Below, in pieces: positions 2,626-64,000 of a stretch of 64,000 bases of DNA. The notes under the pieces were generated by a model that was not told the DNA's origin, searched no databases, and saw only the letters and a program-made list of their open reading frames with translations. Position 1 is the stretch's first letter. Every line of letters begins with the position of its first letter. This DNA comes from Ruegeria sp. THAF57 (lineage in GTDB: Bacteria; Pseudomonadota; Alphaproteobacteria; Rhodobacterales; Rhodobacteraceae), in assembly GCF_903914075.1 (NCBI RefSeq), contig NZ_CAIWNQ010000003.1, positions 310,001 to 374,000 on the forward strand, written 5' to 3'. The translations under genes were made by a program, and so were the position numbers.

Positions 2626-3639
2626 CTACTCTCCGCAGATGTTCTGAAGCCGGACCCAATCGCGGTCCGGCAACACCTGTTGCAAAGGTCGTCCTGCCAT
2701 CGGGTCGGCCTCGATCAAGCCCAGAACGGTTTCACCCGTCACGTCCATCGCATAGGCATATGGTGTCGAGGGAAGGGCGACTTGCGCGAAAAGCTCAAGT
2801 AGGTCGTCATCCGGCAGTCGAGGGCGCGGCTCTGACAAGACCTGCTCGGTATAGCTATCTACGATCTCGGGTGTCAGCTCACCGGTTGTGAGCAGACGGA
2901 AGGCAGAGCGCACTCCGGTCCGGTCCAGAAGGTCATCCAAAGGATCCTGAGCGGCTGCCCGCGCGCGTTCGGCGATGATATAGCCAGCCGCGACCGAGGG
3001 GTCTTCGTGGTCTTCAACCAATGAGCGGTTCAAAAGGATGATCCCTCCGGGTAGGCTGAGGCTACTTTGTACGCCCGCAGGCAGGATAACGACGCTGCGC
3101 ACCCCCGTCCGCGTCGCCAGATGGTCCAGCGCCTCCTGCGCGTCCGCAGAGGTGCACGCGCGGCCTGACACCCTTTCAATCCGGCTCAGGATGGCGTCGC
3201 CTATGTCCTGCCTCTTGATCTCGGGCACGACAGACACAACGTGATTTTGCAAAGCAGCCGGCACCCATAGCAGCAAAAGCGCAAGAACGGCCCCGACAAC
3301 GCCCGCAACGCTCAGCCAACGCAGCCGCCCCGGATGTGGTCTCGCACGGTCGATTGCGCGTTGCAGGCGGTCGATGGCCTCGATCATGGTCGTTTCAGAT
3401 TCCGCCAGTTCCAGCGTTTCTTCCGGGTCGCCATCGGGGTTGAAAATCGCTGGATAACTGCCGGGGTTCTGACGCTCGAGCGCTGCCAGTGACCAATGTG
3501 TCAGGGCGCGGTCATTGAAATCCGAAATTGTCAGAGTCGCTTCGCCAATTGAAACCACGACCTCGCGCCGTTGCACATCGGGCGAGGGGCGCCACAGACC
3601 GGTGGCTTCGATCCGCTGGTACTGTTTCAGGGCCGTCAT
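2626..3639 (-). CDS. membrane-anchored M48-like pseudopeptidase (hypothetical)
   Basis: A 337-aa protein of unestablished function. It has an acidic cytosolic N-terminal region of about 105 residues, one membrane segment (about 107-130, VVGAVLALLLLWVPAAL) and a C-terminal domain presumably in the periplasm. That domain carries LPGGIILLNRSLVE followed by AAGYIIAERARAAAQDPL. This follows the M48 pattern LPGGxIfvnrGLle...AavlaHEiaHvaarHpl, with both zinc-binding His positions replaced (HExxH becomes AExxR). It is probably a catalytically inactive M48 relative; this is my alignment by eye, not a search. ATG at 3639 is chosen over TTG at 3642. Transcribed divergently from the DMT exporter and convergently with upp. 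Confidence 0.8.
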   Translation of the reverse strand: MTALKQYQRIEATGLWRPSPDVQRREVVVSIGEATLTISDFNDRALTHWSLAALERQNPGSYPAIFNPDGDPEETLELAESETTMIEAIDRLQRAIDRARPHPGRLRWLSVAGVVGAVLALLLLWVPAALQNHVVSVVPEIKRQDIGDAILSRIERVSGRACTSADAQEALDHLATRTGVRSVVILPAGVQSSLSLPGGIILLNRSLVEDHEDPSVAAGYIIAERARAAAQDPLDDLLDRTGVRSAFRLLTTGELTPEIVDSYTEQVLSEPRPRLPDDDLLELFAQVALPSTPYAYAMDVTGETVLGLIEADPMAGRPLQQVLPDRDWVRLQNICGE

Positions 3640-58088: not shown

Positions 58089-58742
58089 ATGACAGACTTC
58101 GCAGCCCGCCGCCGCACGATGGTTGATACACAGATCCGACCCTCTGATGTGACCAAGTTTCCCATTATCGACGCGATGTTGAACGTGAGGCGAGAGAACT
58201 TCGTGCCGGATTCCCAGCGCGAGGCGGCTTATGTCGAAGGATTGGTAGATATGGGTGCGGGGCGCTGTATGCTAGAGCCCAGGACTCTGGCTAAGATATT
58301 GGATGCACTTAACATTTCAAATGATGAGATTGTTTTGGATGTCGGCTCGGCTATGGGGTATTCGACAGCAGTTGCGGCGCGGATGGCGCAATTGGTTGTC
58401 GGAGTCGAGGAAGACGAGGACCTTGCGGCCGAGTCTCAGACCGTCCTTATGGAGGCGGACGCAGACAACGCCATCGTGCATGTCGGACCGTTGGCGCAAG
58501 GTGCGACAGAGCATGGGCCTTACGACGTGATCATGATCCAGGGCGGGGTCGAGCAGGTGCCAGACGCCATTATTGATCAGCTCAAAGAACACGGCCGGAT
58601 TGCTTGCCTTTTCATGGAAGGTGAGCTGGGAACGGTTCGCATCGGCCATAAATCCGGAGGTCGGGTGACCTGGCGCCATGCTTTTAATGCCAACGCGCCG
58701 GTATTGCAGGCATTTTCCGCGGATCGTGCATTTTCGCTATAA
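58089..58742 (+). CDS. protein-L-isoaspartate O-methyltransferase-like protein
   Basis: A 217-aa class I SAM methyltransferase of the Pcm family: MVDTQIRPSDVTKFPIIDAM at the N-terminus, SAM loop VLDVGSAMGYSTAVAARM. The Pcm active-site motif (normally ALPIGxGQTISQP) reads VDMGAGRCMLEP, so the catalytic Ser/Thr is missing and isoaspartyl repair is doubtful. The frame runs upstream through the tRNA, but the homologous start is ATG 58089. Synteny with tolC and a popZ-like gene is typical of alphaproteobacteria. Confidence 0.85.
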   Translation: MTDFAARRRTMVDTQIRPSDVTKFPIIDAMLNVRRENFVPDSQREAAYVEGLVDMGAGRCMLEPRTLAKILDALNISNDEIVLDVGSAMGYSTAVAARMAQLVVGVEEDEDLAAESQTVLMEADADNAIVHVGPLAQGATEHGPYDVIMIQGGVEQVPDAIIDQLKEHGRIACLFMEGELGTVRIGHKSGGRVTWRHAFNANAPVLQAFSADRAFSL

Positions 58743-58837: not shown

Positions 58838-60256
58838 ATGAGTTCAAAGTCGGGAGGTAAGCTGGTCAAGGCCTTGGCGCTGACGGCTGGTATCGCACTC
58901 AGCGTTGTTCCGGGACGGGCGGTTTGGGCAGATAATCTGACCGACGCTTTCATTGGTGCATATAACACAAGCGGATTGCTGGAACAGAACCGCGCGCTGC
59001 TGCGTGCAGCAGACGAAGATGTGGCAATTGCCCTGTCTGCGCTGCGGCCGATCATCAACTGGACGGTGCAAGTCAGTCAGGATTACACGCGTTCCACCAC
59101 GGATGACGTCGTAGTCAGGAACGAACCATCGTCCTTTTTCACCGGATTGACGCTGAGCCAATTGATTTATGATGGCGGCTTCTCGGTTCTGGGCAAACAG
59201 TCTGCGCAGGAAATCGTTCTGTCCACCCGTCAGAACCTGATTGATATTGAACAGCTTGTCCTGTTCCGCGCCGTGAATGCGTATCTGGAAGTCGTTCTTC
59301 AAGAAGAAACCGTTCAGATTCAGCTCAACGATGTCGATGTGTCTTCCGAGGAACTCCGGGCCTCTCAGGATCGTTTCGACGTGGGCGAAGTCACACGAAC
59401 CGACGTTGCGTTGTCCCAAGCGCAGCTTGCCAGTGCTCAGGCGGAACTTGCCATTGCTCGCGGTAACCTGAGCCGCGCGCAGGCGGAATATGTGAACGCC
59501 GTGGGTAAAGCGCCGGGTGCAACAGCGGGCCAACCCAGCCTGCCGAACCTATCTGGCTCAGAATCTGAAGCGATCGCCTTCGCTCAGCGGAACCACCCCG
59601 CAATTCTGGCCGCTCAGCACGAGGTGCGAGCCTTTGATCTGGCCGTGCAGCAGCAGCGTGCCAACCTTGGTCCGAACGTAAGCCTGAACGCGGATGCGGG
59701 TATTCGCGAAAGCTATGACAATGATGACAACCTCGAAGACGCGTCGATTTCGCTGAACTTCAACCAGCCGATCTATGCTGGTGGTCGTTTGGCGGCAAAC
59801 GTGCGTCGGTCCATGGCGACCCGTGACGCCTCGCGAGCAAACCTGTTGAACGTGCAAAAAGACATCACGCAGGGCGTGGCAGATGCCTATGCGCGTTTTC
59901 AGGCCGCAACTGCAAGCCTGAGAGCGTCGACGGAACAGGTTCGCGCCTCGCAGGTCGCGTTTGACGGTATCCGGGAAGAGGCGACATTGGGCGCTCGGAC
60001 CACGCTGGACGTTCTGAACGCTCAGCAGGACTTGCTGAACGCGCAGTTGACCGAGGTTGGTTCACGCACAGAGCGGTCACGTGCGGCCTATGATTTGCTG
60101 CAGGCCCAAGGTCTGCTAACGGCCGAGCGGCTCGGTCTTGCTGTGCAGATCTATGACCCGACGCTCTACTACAACCTGGTCAAGCGCGCACCGGCGCAGG
60201 TCAGCAAGCAGAGCAAGGATCTGGATCGCGTGCTGAAAGCGTTGCGTCGCGACTAA
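58838..60256 (+). CDS. tolC: TolC-family outer-membrane efflux protein
   Basis: A 472-aa outer-membrane channel for tripartite efflux or type I secretion. Signal peptide about 1-31 (ending RAVWA); two OEP repeats with long helices (EEVGEVTRTDVALSQAQLASAQAEL-like segment, and TLGARTTLDVLNAQQDLLNA in the second). ATG 58838 has SD GAGAGG. Between the Pcm-like and PopZ-like genes. Confidence 0.95.
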   Translation: MSSKSGGKLVKALALTAGIALSVVPGRAVWADNLTDAFIGAYNTSGLLEQNRALLRAADEDVAIALSALRPIINWTVQVSQDYTRSTTDDVVVRNEPSSFFTGLTLSQLIYDGGFSVLGKQSAQEIVLSTRQNLIDIEQLVLFRAVNAYLEVVLQEETVQIQLNDVDVSSEELRASQDRFDVGEVTRTDVALSQAQLASAQAELAIARGNLSRAQAEYVNAVGKAPGATAGQPSLPNLSGSESEAIAFAQRNHPAILAAQHEVRAFDLAVQQQRANLGPNVSLNADAGIRESYDNDDNLEDASISLNFNQPIYAGGRLAANVRRSMATRDASRANLLNVQKDITQGVADAYARFQAATASLRASTEQVRASQVAFDGIREEATLGARTTLDVLNAQQDLLNAQLTEVGSRTERSRAAYDLLQAQGLLTAERLGLAVQIYDPTLYYNLVKRAPAQVSKQSKDLDRVLKALRRD

Positions 60257-60331: not shown

Positions 60332-61072
60332 ATGACGGACAAGGTGGTAAACGGGAGCGTAGAGGACGTTTTGTCCTCTATCAAACGGCTGGTCGGTGAA
60401 GAAGGCCGCAAGATCCCGGACCTTGTTCCAACAGCCATGTCCAGAAAGCCGGGTCGCTTGGTCCTGACGGATGCTTTGCGTGTTAGCGAAGCAGCAGAAG
60501 ACGAAGACGAGGCGGAACCCAAGGCGAAATACACCGCGGATGCGTCCATCAAGCCAATGGTCCTGCGTGCCAGCGACATTGTTAAGCGTGACGAACCTGT
60601 CGCCGAAGAACAGCAAAGCCCTGATCCAGCGGATAGTCTGAGTGCGAAGATCGAGGCGCTGGAAGCCGCAATTGCCCGCACCGAAGATCAGTGGGAGCCG
60701 GACGGCGATAGCGAGGACGAGTATTCCGGCACGCGCACGACGTCGCTGGAATGGAGCGCGGATGAGGAAGCAAGCAGCGCCAAGGAAGACGTCCACGCCG
60801 ATAATGATGACTCTGCGCCCGAGGCCGAACCCCAGGTTTCCGAAACGAAGGCAATGTTCATTCGCGATCCCGAAGTGACCGCTGCCGCTGTATCATCCAC
60901 TGAACAGCCCAGGGACGTAACCGCCCTTGATGAGGTCGCGTTACGTGACCTGATAGCGCTGGTTGTGCGTGAGGAACTGCAAGGCGTTCTGGGTGAGCGG
61001 ATTACGCGCAACGTCCGCAAAATGGTCCGGCGCGAGATTTATCGAGCGCTTGCCGAACACAAGCCGGATTGA
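60332..61072 (+). CDS. PopZ-like polar organising protein candidate
   Basis: A 246-aa acidic, mostly disordered protein with the three-part PopZ/DUF2497 plan. A short N-terminal helix (residues 8-25, VEDVLSSIKRLVGEE) resembles the PopZ client-binding helix. A long Asp/Glu/Pro-rich linker (about 50-195) follows. The C-terminal helical region (200-243, LRDLIALVVREELQGVLGER then NVRKMVRREIYRAL) resembles the oligomerisation domain. Downstream of pcm-like and tolC, as is popZ in many alphaproteobacteria. Overall identity to Caulobacter PopZ is low by eye. Confidence 0.7.
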   Translation: MTDKVVNGSVEDVLSSIKRLVGEEGRKIPDLVPTAMSRKPGRLVLTDALRVSEAAEDEDEAEPKAKYTADASIKPMVLRASDIVKRDEPVAEEQQSPDPADSLSAKIEALEAAIARTEDQWEPDGDSEDEYSGTRTTSLEWSADEEASSAKEDVHADNDDSAPEAEPQVSETKAMFIRDPEVTAAAVSSTEQPRDVTALDEVALRDLIALVVREELQGVLGERITRNVRKMVRREIYRALAEHKPD

Positions 61073-61075
61073 TCG

Positions 61076-62533
61076 TTATCCGCGCGTAGGACTCTCTGCA
61101 AGGTCCAGCAGTTGATCCAGGTTCATATGCGTTTCAAGATGGTCCGCCAACGCGTCGAGTGTGTCCTCAACCCCATCTTCATAACCCAAATCCGATGCTG
61201 CGCCGAGCTGTGACAAGTAGCTGGCGCGAAATGCGTCAGAAGAGAAGATGCCATGCAAATAGCTGCCACGAATGCGGCCGGACTTGTCAGTGGCGCCTTC
61301 TGGCCGCCCGTCGATTTCCAGCCAAGCGCGTCGGCAATCGGCCCCCTCTGTTTTACCCATGTGAATTTCATAACCCTGTACAGGGTCGCCGCCTGGAACA
61401 GTTCGGGCGCTGCGCAGGGTGAGCGTCTTTTGTCCCGACATCACCGTGTCGACATCTAATAGGCCCAAGCCTTCGACAGTCCCCTGGCGACCATCCACCC
61501 CTTCCGGGTCCGCGATCGTCTTGCCCAGCATTTGATACCCGCCACACAAGCCCAAGACATGACCGCCCCGACGAACATGTGCAAATAGATCCACATCCCA
61601 GCCCTGAGCGCGGAAATAAGCCAGATCGCCGATGGTCGATTTGCTGCCCGGCAAAAGCACCAGATCGGCGTCTCCGGGCAGAGCGCGACCAGCAGGCACG
61701 ATCTCTACGGTGATGCCCGGTTCGGCGGACAGGGGGTCAAGATCGTCGAAATTCGCCATCCTCTCCAGTTGCGGGACCACGACTTTACAGGCCCCACCGC
61801 TGTGCGAGCGGATATCCATCATGTCTTCGGCTGGAAGACGCCACGCATCATGGAACCAAGGAACGACGCCCAAACAGGGCCATCCGGTTCGCGCTGCTAT
61901 GTCATCTCGTCCTTCGTCAAACAGTGAAACATCACCCTTAAAGCGGTTAACCACAAAGCCCCTGATCATAGCCAGATCGCTCGCATCAAGCACGGCCTGG
62001 GTTCCAACGATCTGGGCAATGACGCCGCCGCGATGGATGTCACCGACCAGAACCACAGGAACCCCCGCAGCACAGGCGAAGCCCATGTTGGCAATATCGC
62101 CCTTGCGCAGGTTGGTTTCCGCCGGGCTTCCAGCGCCTTCTATCAGCACCAGATCGGCATCGTCGCATAACCTGTCAAAGCTTTCCAAGGCAGCACTCAG
62201 CAGCTTGGACTTGTCCTTGCGGTAATCTCCGGCTTTCATCGTCCCGGCGCGTTGGCCCTGTACGACAATCTGAGCGCCGGTATCCGTTTCAGGTTTCAGC
62301 AGAATCGGGTTCATGTCAGTATGCGTCGGCCGTTTGGCAGCGCGGGCCTGTAATGCCTGCGCCCGTCCGATCTCACCGCCGTTCTCGGTGACGGCGGCAT
62401 TGTTTGACATGTTTTGCGGCTTGAACGGTGCGACACGCAGGCCGCGCCGCGTATAGGCCCGGGCCAGCCCTGCCACCAGAACCGACTTGCCGACATTGCT
62501 GCCGGTGCCCTGAATCATGATGGCGCGAACCAT
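61076..62533 (-). CDS. cobQ: cobyric acid synthase
   Basis: A 485-aa glutamine-dependent amidase converting adenosyl-cobyrinic a,c-diamide to cobyric acid (b, d, e, g amides). N-terminal DTBS-like P-loop [45 protein letters not shown]-terminal GATase with nucleophile Cys in [10 protein letters not shown] and His in [11 protein letters not shown] 62533. Apart from the main cob operon; no second riboswitch seen in its 62-bp upstream gap. Confidence 0.97.
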
Positions 62534-63239: not shown

Positions 63240-63560
63240 TCAGGCTGCTTCTGCCTGTTGTGCGGCGTTGCGACGCTCGCTCTCTTCACGCGACAGGGCG
63301 ACCGAGGTGCGTACACCACGACCAACGAACTCCATCAGTCCGCTGACAACGCGTTCGTTCGGGTCAATCCCTGCACAAGACAGGACCTCGCGACCATCGC
63401 GCGAGCGGGCCCACCGAGCGATTTGTTCGGGGCCATTGCCGTACTTTTTATCGTCGGCGATTGCGTCATCCAGTGCAGCCAACACAACGGCTGCGAAAAG
63501 TTTACGAGCACGGTTGCCTTGCTCATTGTTAAAGGCGGTGCCGTCAACGAAATCTCTCAT
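63240..63560 (-). CDS. small conserved Rhodobacteraceae protein (DUF6280-like)
   Basis: A 106-aa soluble, largely helical protein (MRDFVDGTAFNNEQGNRARK; AALDDAIADDKKYG; IARWARSRDGREVLSCAGI) that I recognise as highly conserved among roseobacters; function unknown. SD GGAAGA precedes ATG 63560. Own terminator downstream. Confidence 0.85.
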   Translation of the reverse strand: MRDFVDGTAFNNEQGNRARKLFAAVVLAALDDAIADDKKYGNGPEQIARWARSRDGREVLSCAGIDPNERVVSGLMEFVGRGVRTSVALSREESERRNAAQQAEAA

Positions 63561-63778: not shown

Positions 63779-64000
63779 ATGCCCAAGATAAATGGGAACG
63801 AAATTCGCCCCGGCAATGTGCTTGAGCATAATGACGGTCTGTGGGCAGCCGTAAAAGTCGATCATGTAAAGCCCGGAAAAGGCGGTGCTTTTGCGCAAGT
63901 CGAATTGCGCAACCTGCGGAATGGGTCAAAATTGAACGAACGGTTCCGTTCGGCGGATAAAGTTGAACGTGTGCGGCTAGAGCAGAAGGACCAGCAGTTC
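63779..64000 (+). CDS. efp: elongation factor P, 3'-truncated by window edge
   Basis: The first 74 codons of EF-P, which relieves ribosome stalling at polyproline. [20 protein letters not shown] opens the KOW-like domain I; the modified-loop lysine lies in VKPGKGGAF, with PGKGGA intact; then [27 protein letters not shown] 9 nt before ATG 63779. The frame continues past the window end. Confidence 0.97.

Follow-up and report, generated by a model that had tools for sequence, protein, structure and literature searches.

A divergent candidate PopZ descendant downstream of pcm and tolC in Ruegeria sp. THAF57 and other Rhodobacteraceae

A 246-codon gene of Ruegeria sp. THAF57 is well supported, by sequence comparison, as a descendant of popZ, the gene for the polar organizing protein of Alphaproteobacteria. 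The best explanation is a Rhodobacteraceae popZ descendant that has remained in the ancestral slot after pcm and tolC and quite probably acts as a polar hub. Here we show, from comparisons of profiles and gene order, common descent in which the N-terminal client-binding helix and an acidic linker are kept, and the C-terminal end is rebuilt as a basic helix without the WLDxNLP signature. A passage of PMC5182065 describes many Rhodobacterales as having no conspicuous PopZ, and an excerpt of PMC6414705 states that R. sphaeroides contains none. A literature search of titles and abstract openings gave no report of a Rhodobacterales PopZ among the matches listed. If our reading is true, the polar hub would be much wider in the class and its earlier absence largely a failure of detection. 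A strongly changed PopZ descendant also makes the arrangement of poles and chromosomes testable in a group said to lack PopZ.

The window, that is, the whole stretch of 64,000 nucleotides that was analysed, contains the gene on the forward strand as an ORF with an ATG start, and the observation of a popZ-like gene there is confirmed (Table 1). Homologues were found in 102/120 sampled genomes of the family, the Ruegeria genome included, and in 101/119 genera, so the ORF is not a chance one. The pcm-like and tolC genes that the initial annotation had placed upstream both match their family profiles, and the gap between tolC and the popZ-like gene is 75 bases. The annotation had also remarked that valS is absent beside the gene; it indeed sits beyond the window, some 157 kb along the same contig. 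The gene that follows on the opposite strand, which we take to be cobQ-like from its sequence, has a homologue downstream and opposite in 33/81 family loci.

Table 1. Position of the popZ-like gene, its parts and its neighbours in the window.
Feature	Position	Strand	Basis
popZ-like gene, 246 aa	60332..61072	+	ORF; PopZ_fam match E=0.0017
N-terminal helix, residues 1-25	60332..60406	+	profiles; ungapped alignment to Caulobacter PopZ
Acidic low-proline linker, residues 26-198	60407..60925	+	composition
Conserved linker motif, residues 42-51, family consensus LVLTPALRV	60455..60484	+	alignment of 40
Mid-linker predicted helix followed by WEPDG motif, residues 99-124	60626..60703	+	alignment and model
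C-terminal helix region, residues 199-242, remnant of DUF2497	60926..61057	+	profiles, model, composition
C-terminal tail of the window protein, GERITRNVRKMVRREIYRALA			net charge +5
tolC, upstream neighbour	58838..60256	+	TIGR01844, 257.9 bits, above cut-off of 225.15
pcm-like (protein-L-isoaspartate O-methyltransferase), upstream neighbour	58089..58742	+	TIGR00080 (pimt) E=4.4e-32, 111.7 bits, below cut-off of 159.05; inner ATG taken as start
Presumed cobQ-like gene, downstream, opposite strand	61076..62533	-	inner ATG taken as start

Taken singly, the window protein matches the curated PopZ models weakly. It scores 19.6 bits against NCBIfam PopZ_fam (NF052660) over residues 9-238, below the cut-off of 125, and 13.5 bits against Pfam DUF2497 (PF10691) over residues 190-239 (E=0.1), below the cut-off of 27. 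With no curated cut-off reached, the initial description of the protein as a 'divergent' PopZ is apt. Since it falls short of the curated limits and lacks the canonical C-terminal signature, we regard it as a Rhodobacteraceae variant, almost certainly a PopZ orthologue by descent, that lies outside the curated models. Within the 4.28-Mb Ruegeria genome the popZ-like gene is the sole DUF2497 match at E<=10, and no second, canonical popZ was found at that threshold; the value itself (E=0.265) proves nothing alone, because three unrelated control genomes also give matches at such values. A genome-wide PopZ_fam search at E<=1 gave no match in the Ruegeria genome. Among 61 genomes drawn from the order, that profile matched below its cut-off at E<=1 in 46 and reached the cut-off in none.

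The family as a whole gives a much stronger signal. DUF2497 matches at E<=1 occur in 114/149 family genomes, just four of them above the cut-off, compared with 113/142 genomes of the class. For 88 genomes common to both lists, the genome's best DUF2497 match lies in the homologue of the window protein in 85 (the exceptions are G053, G074 and G083); the other 14 of the 102 homologue-bearing genomes lack any DUF2497 match at E<=1. When 40 homologues were scanned singly, 31 matched PopZ_fam at E<=0.01 (best 1.7e-9), three other families being matched once each, and 20 matched DUF2497 at the same threshold; all 20 canonical PopZ proteins matched PopZ_fam. A profile of the 40 homologues, searched against 177,635 distinct PDB sequences, returned Caulobacter PopZ (6XRY) at the top with E=7.7e-5 and the next sequence at E=2. 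In this alignment positions 1-39 of the family profile fall on residues 1-39 of Caulobacter PopZ, ungapped.

We then treated the two ends separately, using 20 canonical PopZ proteins from 20 other families, drawn from high-scoring DUF2497 loci of the class, and building one HMM from their 24 N-terminal residues and another from their C-terminal 75 residues. Across 60 family loci with 5082 ORFs in all, the candidate came top of its own locus in 59 with the N HMM (12th in L118) and in all 60 with the C HMM. Three candidates (L107, L108 and L109) had been chosen by DUF2497 and the other 57 by similarity to the window protein, and these 57 ranked top in 56 and 57 loci, respectively. Some of the top ranks carry weightless E-values, for example with the N HMM in L109 and L120 and with the C HMM in L118 and L122, and 57 candidates by the N HMM and 54 by the C HMM outscore the best other ORF. 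In 21 further loci, the window included, the N HMM placed the candidate top in 19 and the C HMM in 21; the N HMM gave no match in L161 or in L158, a locus truncated at the end of its contig. For the window protein the N HMM gives E=0.0047 (next ORF of the locus 160) and the C HMM E=0.15 (next 58). Both ends thus match, as the initial annotation had proposed to check with PopZ profiles, weakly for the single protein and strongly for the family.

For the N end, direct comparison of family and canonical profiles with hhalign gave 97.6% probability and a score of 44.4, against at most 17.0 in 300 column shuffles; for the C end it gave 95.1% and 39.8, against at most 19.5 in 300 shuffles. The shuffles are a lenient control because they destroy helix periodicity. 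The ends were compared separately because a full-length profile comparison aligned the C end alone, at 91%. An unrelated disordered protein that came to lie after tolC by chance and resembles PopZ only in having helix-forming charged ends would account for the weak single-protein scores, since composition can make charged helices match, and the column shuffles lose their periodicity. We consider it highly improbable, given that each end matches on its own beyond all 300 shuffles, that the search of PDB sequences finds PopZ and nothing else below E=2, and that the gene sits in the canonical popZ slot (19/20 loci), with intermediate sequences and with valS retained in some members. One such intermediate, in G022, is found by a search with the window protein and also exceeds the DUF2497 cut-off. 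In Cereibacter johrii the homologue follows pcm and tolC, and its N and C HMM matches are the best of the locus. Chance similarity to PopZ was rejected on the separate N and C matches, the shuffles and the gene position.

The slot itself is well conserved. Genes for pcm and tolC lie upstream in 77/81 family loci and in 19/20 canonical popZ loci of other families, which bears out the earlier suggestion of a usual popZ neighbourhood. The four family loci without this arrangement comprise two contig ends, one tolC beyond the distance rule and one locus in which tolC was not found. Directly downstream, valS is usual but not defining for canonical popZ (16/20 loci), whereas in the family it has mostly moved away (3/81 loci, in G008, G017 and G101). 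Eighteen family genomes had no homologue match; three of them are G008, G017 and G054, and the other 15 were searched with TolC, which gave a locus in 14. In four of these loci valS follows (G014, G015, G033 and G090), and two of the four, G015 and G014, contain a clear family-type homologue flanked by valS (family C-end HMM E=2e-13 and 7.6e-9). From this pattern the order pcm-tolC-popZ-valS looks ancestral, with valS having moved away within the family.

The protein resembles the PopZ of Caulobacter and other Alphaproteobacteria in the register of its N-terminal helix, in having an acidic linker and a helical C-terminal end, and in its gene slot behind pcm and tolC. An AlphaFold2 model built from the single sequence, with low confidence (mean pLDDT 51, pTM 0.19), predicts helices at residues 10-25, 99-120 (mid-linker) and 201-242. 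The first agrees with the short N-terminal helix described initially; at the C terminus a helix is also predicted, as one long helix and not the several of the proposed multi-helix module. The N-terminal helix keeps E11, D12, L14, S16, I17 and R19, and has G at position 22. Across the family, in the 74 of 78 sequences that could be placed (four could not), position 12 is D or E in 72, position 19 is R or K in 72 and position 22 is S in 54. A passage of PMC5182065 reports that the sites for ParAB and other clients are inactivated in the Caulobacter PopZ variant E12K/R19E/S22P. Of the three sites altered in that variant, two, the client-binding positions 12 and 19, are kept in the family.

The linker is acidic, as claimed at the outset, with 25% D/E and 8% P in the window protein (measured over residues 26-196). 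Family linkers are longer than canonical ones (median 252 versus 143 residues, taken over the 75 family and 20 canonical proteins that have 150 aa or more), similar in D/E content (0.24 versus 0.27) and lower in proline (0.10 versus 0.19). They also differ from canonical PopZ in carrying the motifs LVLTPALRV and WEPDG; in the former, L45 is invariant and L43, T46 and R50 occur in at least 90% of 40 homologues.

The protein also departs from canonical PopZ at the C terminus. The WLD-type motif is absent from the window protein, as are the canonical WLDxNLP signature as a whole and its W, which is invariant (W203) in the 20 canonical PopZ proteins; the motif is also absent in 77 of 98 genomes that have both a PopZ-like protein and ZitP. 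The net charge of the 21-residue C-terminal tail averages +4.5 over 78 family proteins and -1.1 over the 20 canonical ones; the tail was located by a simple rule that is wrong for L121 at least. In Caulobacter PopZ, according to an excerpt of PMC9512792, the helical end attracts and the disordered acidic linker counterbalances this attraction; joining a basic end to such a linker would be expected to alter that balance. It is conceivable, and we offer it tentatively, that the assembly end has been rebuilt such that the basic C-terminal helix attracts the protein's own acidic linker, or DNA, and does not rely on helix-helix contacts alone, the contact with ZitP having been rewired at about the same time (R27Q). 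If so, a lineage described as PopZ-less would run its polarity on a charge-inverted PopZ. If the protein is the PopZ of these bacteria, it would also provide condensate work with a natural variant that has a charge-inverted assembly helix.

Judged from the conserved N-terminal helix, the protein plan and the presence of partners, the protein most likely works as PopZ does, assembling with itself into a polar hub that serves ParB and regulators. Self-assembly through the C-terminal helix would form a polar condensate, which the acidic linker would keep fluid. The N-terminal helix would capture clients, namely ParB, the ParA-like protein and other regulators, and client capture would tether the chromosome origin region at the pole. 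At the C-terminal end, the partner surface, including that for ZitP, would have been rewired in the Rhodobacteraceae lineage. The Ruegeria sp. THAF57 genome encodes ParB (206 bits) beside a ParA-like gene with a weak match to the MipZ model, and MipZ itself (395 bits).

An unlikely alternative is a popZ orthologue whose role has shifted: a scaffold, polar or cytoplasmic, that has given up ParB tethering and serves other clients, for example the CtrA phosphorelay or envelope factors. A functionally specialised PopZ is described for Rhizobiales in a passage of PMC5182065, and the charge-inverted tail, the different residue at ZitP position 27 in most of the same genomes and the reduction or apparent absence of the gene in some family members would all fit such a change. 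Against it stand the strong conservation of the N-terminal helix, client-binding positions 12 and 19 included, and the presence of ParB, the ParA-like protein and MipZ in the genome.

A ZitP-like zinc-finger N-terminus was found in 117/120 family genomes (E<=0.05) and in 100/135 genomes of the class. Compared with the ZitP-PopZ polarity module as set out in part of PMC5182065, W35 of ZitP is kept in 79/79 sequences examined, whereas position 27 differs: Q or E stands there in 108 of the 117 family sequences (Q 102, E 6, R 8, K 1; G054 and G017 contribute two sequences each), R or K in 39 of the 40 taken from other families (R 35, K 4, Q 1). The same source reports, in the passage concerned, that with Caulobacter PopZ the R. 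sphaeroides ZitP domain (R27Q) is mostly diffuse, and that it turns robustly polar upon Q27R. In the Ruegeria genome the ZitP-like protein (L185:1501-2277) scores 21.8 bits, below the Pfam cut-off of 29.3, and carries R24, Q27 and W35, the same R27Q difference as R. sphaeroides ZitP. If the hub reading is true, ZitP without an evident PopZ in the Rhodobacteraceae lineage would gain a concrete candidate partner.

The residue at ZitP position 27 follows the PopZ tail closely. For the 98 genomes with both proteins, all 21 with a WLD-type tail have R/K27 and 75 of the 77 without such a tail have Q/E27 (exceptions G083 and G101). Co-evolution of the two sites was considered and set aside: despite the near-complete association, too few branches carry changes for these data to show it. 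In a quick TolC and Pcm tree of 96 of these genomes, all bearing both traits, there were two and one changes; supported branches yielded a single independent pair, whose members do not differ in ZitP.

Some family members have a reduced gene. After tolC, L170 (G045) contains an ORF of 119 codons at 2862-3218 and L171 (G094) one of 123 codons at 2904-3272 (stop to stop), both with N-end remnants and the latter also with half of the C end, an apparent reduction of the gene. Between tolC and valS, L179 (G033) and L180 (G090) have ORFs of 133 and 130 codons with a weakly PopZ-like start and a truncated C end. Five loci with pcm and tolC in place (L168, L169, L174, L177 and L181) showed no popZ-like ORF among the same-strand ORFs of at least 60 codons within about 1.5 kb downstream, and are possible gene losses. 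The gene, absent or shortened in some family genomes, is thus not indispensable everywhere. The short ORFs of L170 and L171 and the loci in which none was seen are what an eroding, functionless popZ relic would leave; with homologues in 101/119 genera and seven invariant plus 31 nearly invariant positions in 40 aligned sequences, we regard a relic as very unlikely. Soon after tolC in L171 and L174, where the popZ-like gene is reduced or unseen, lie a gene resembling that for elongation factor P and one for a small conserved protein, both recognised by eye, and the same pair is found in the window at 63240-63560 (-) and 63779-64000 (+).
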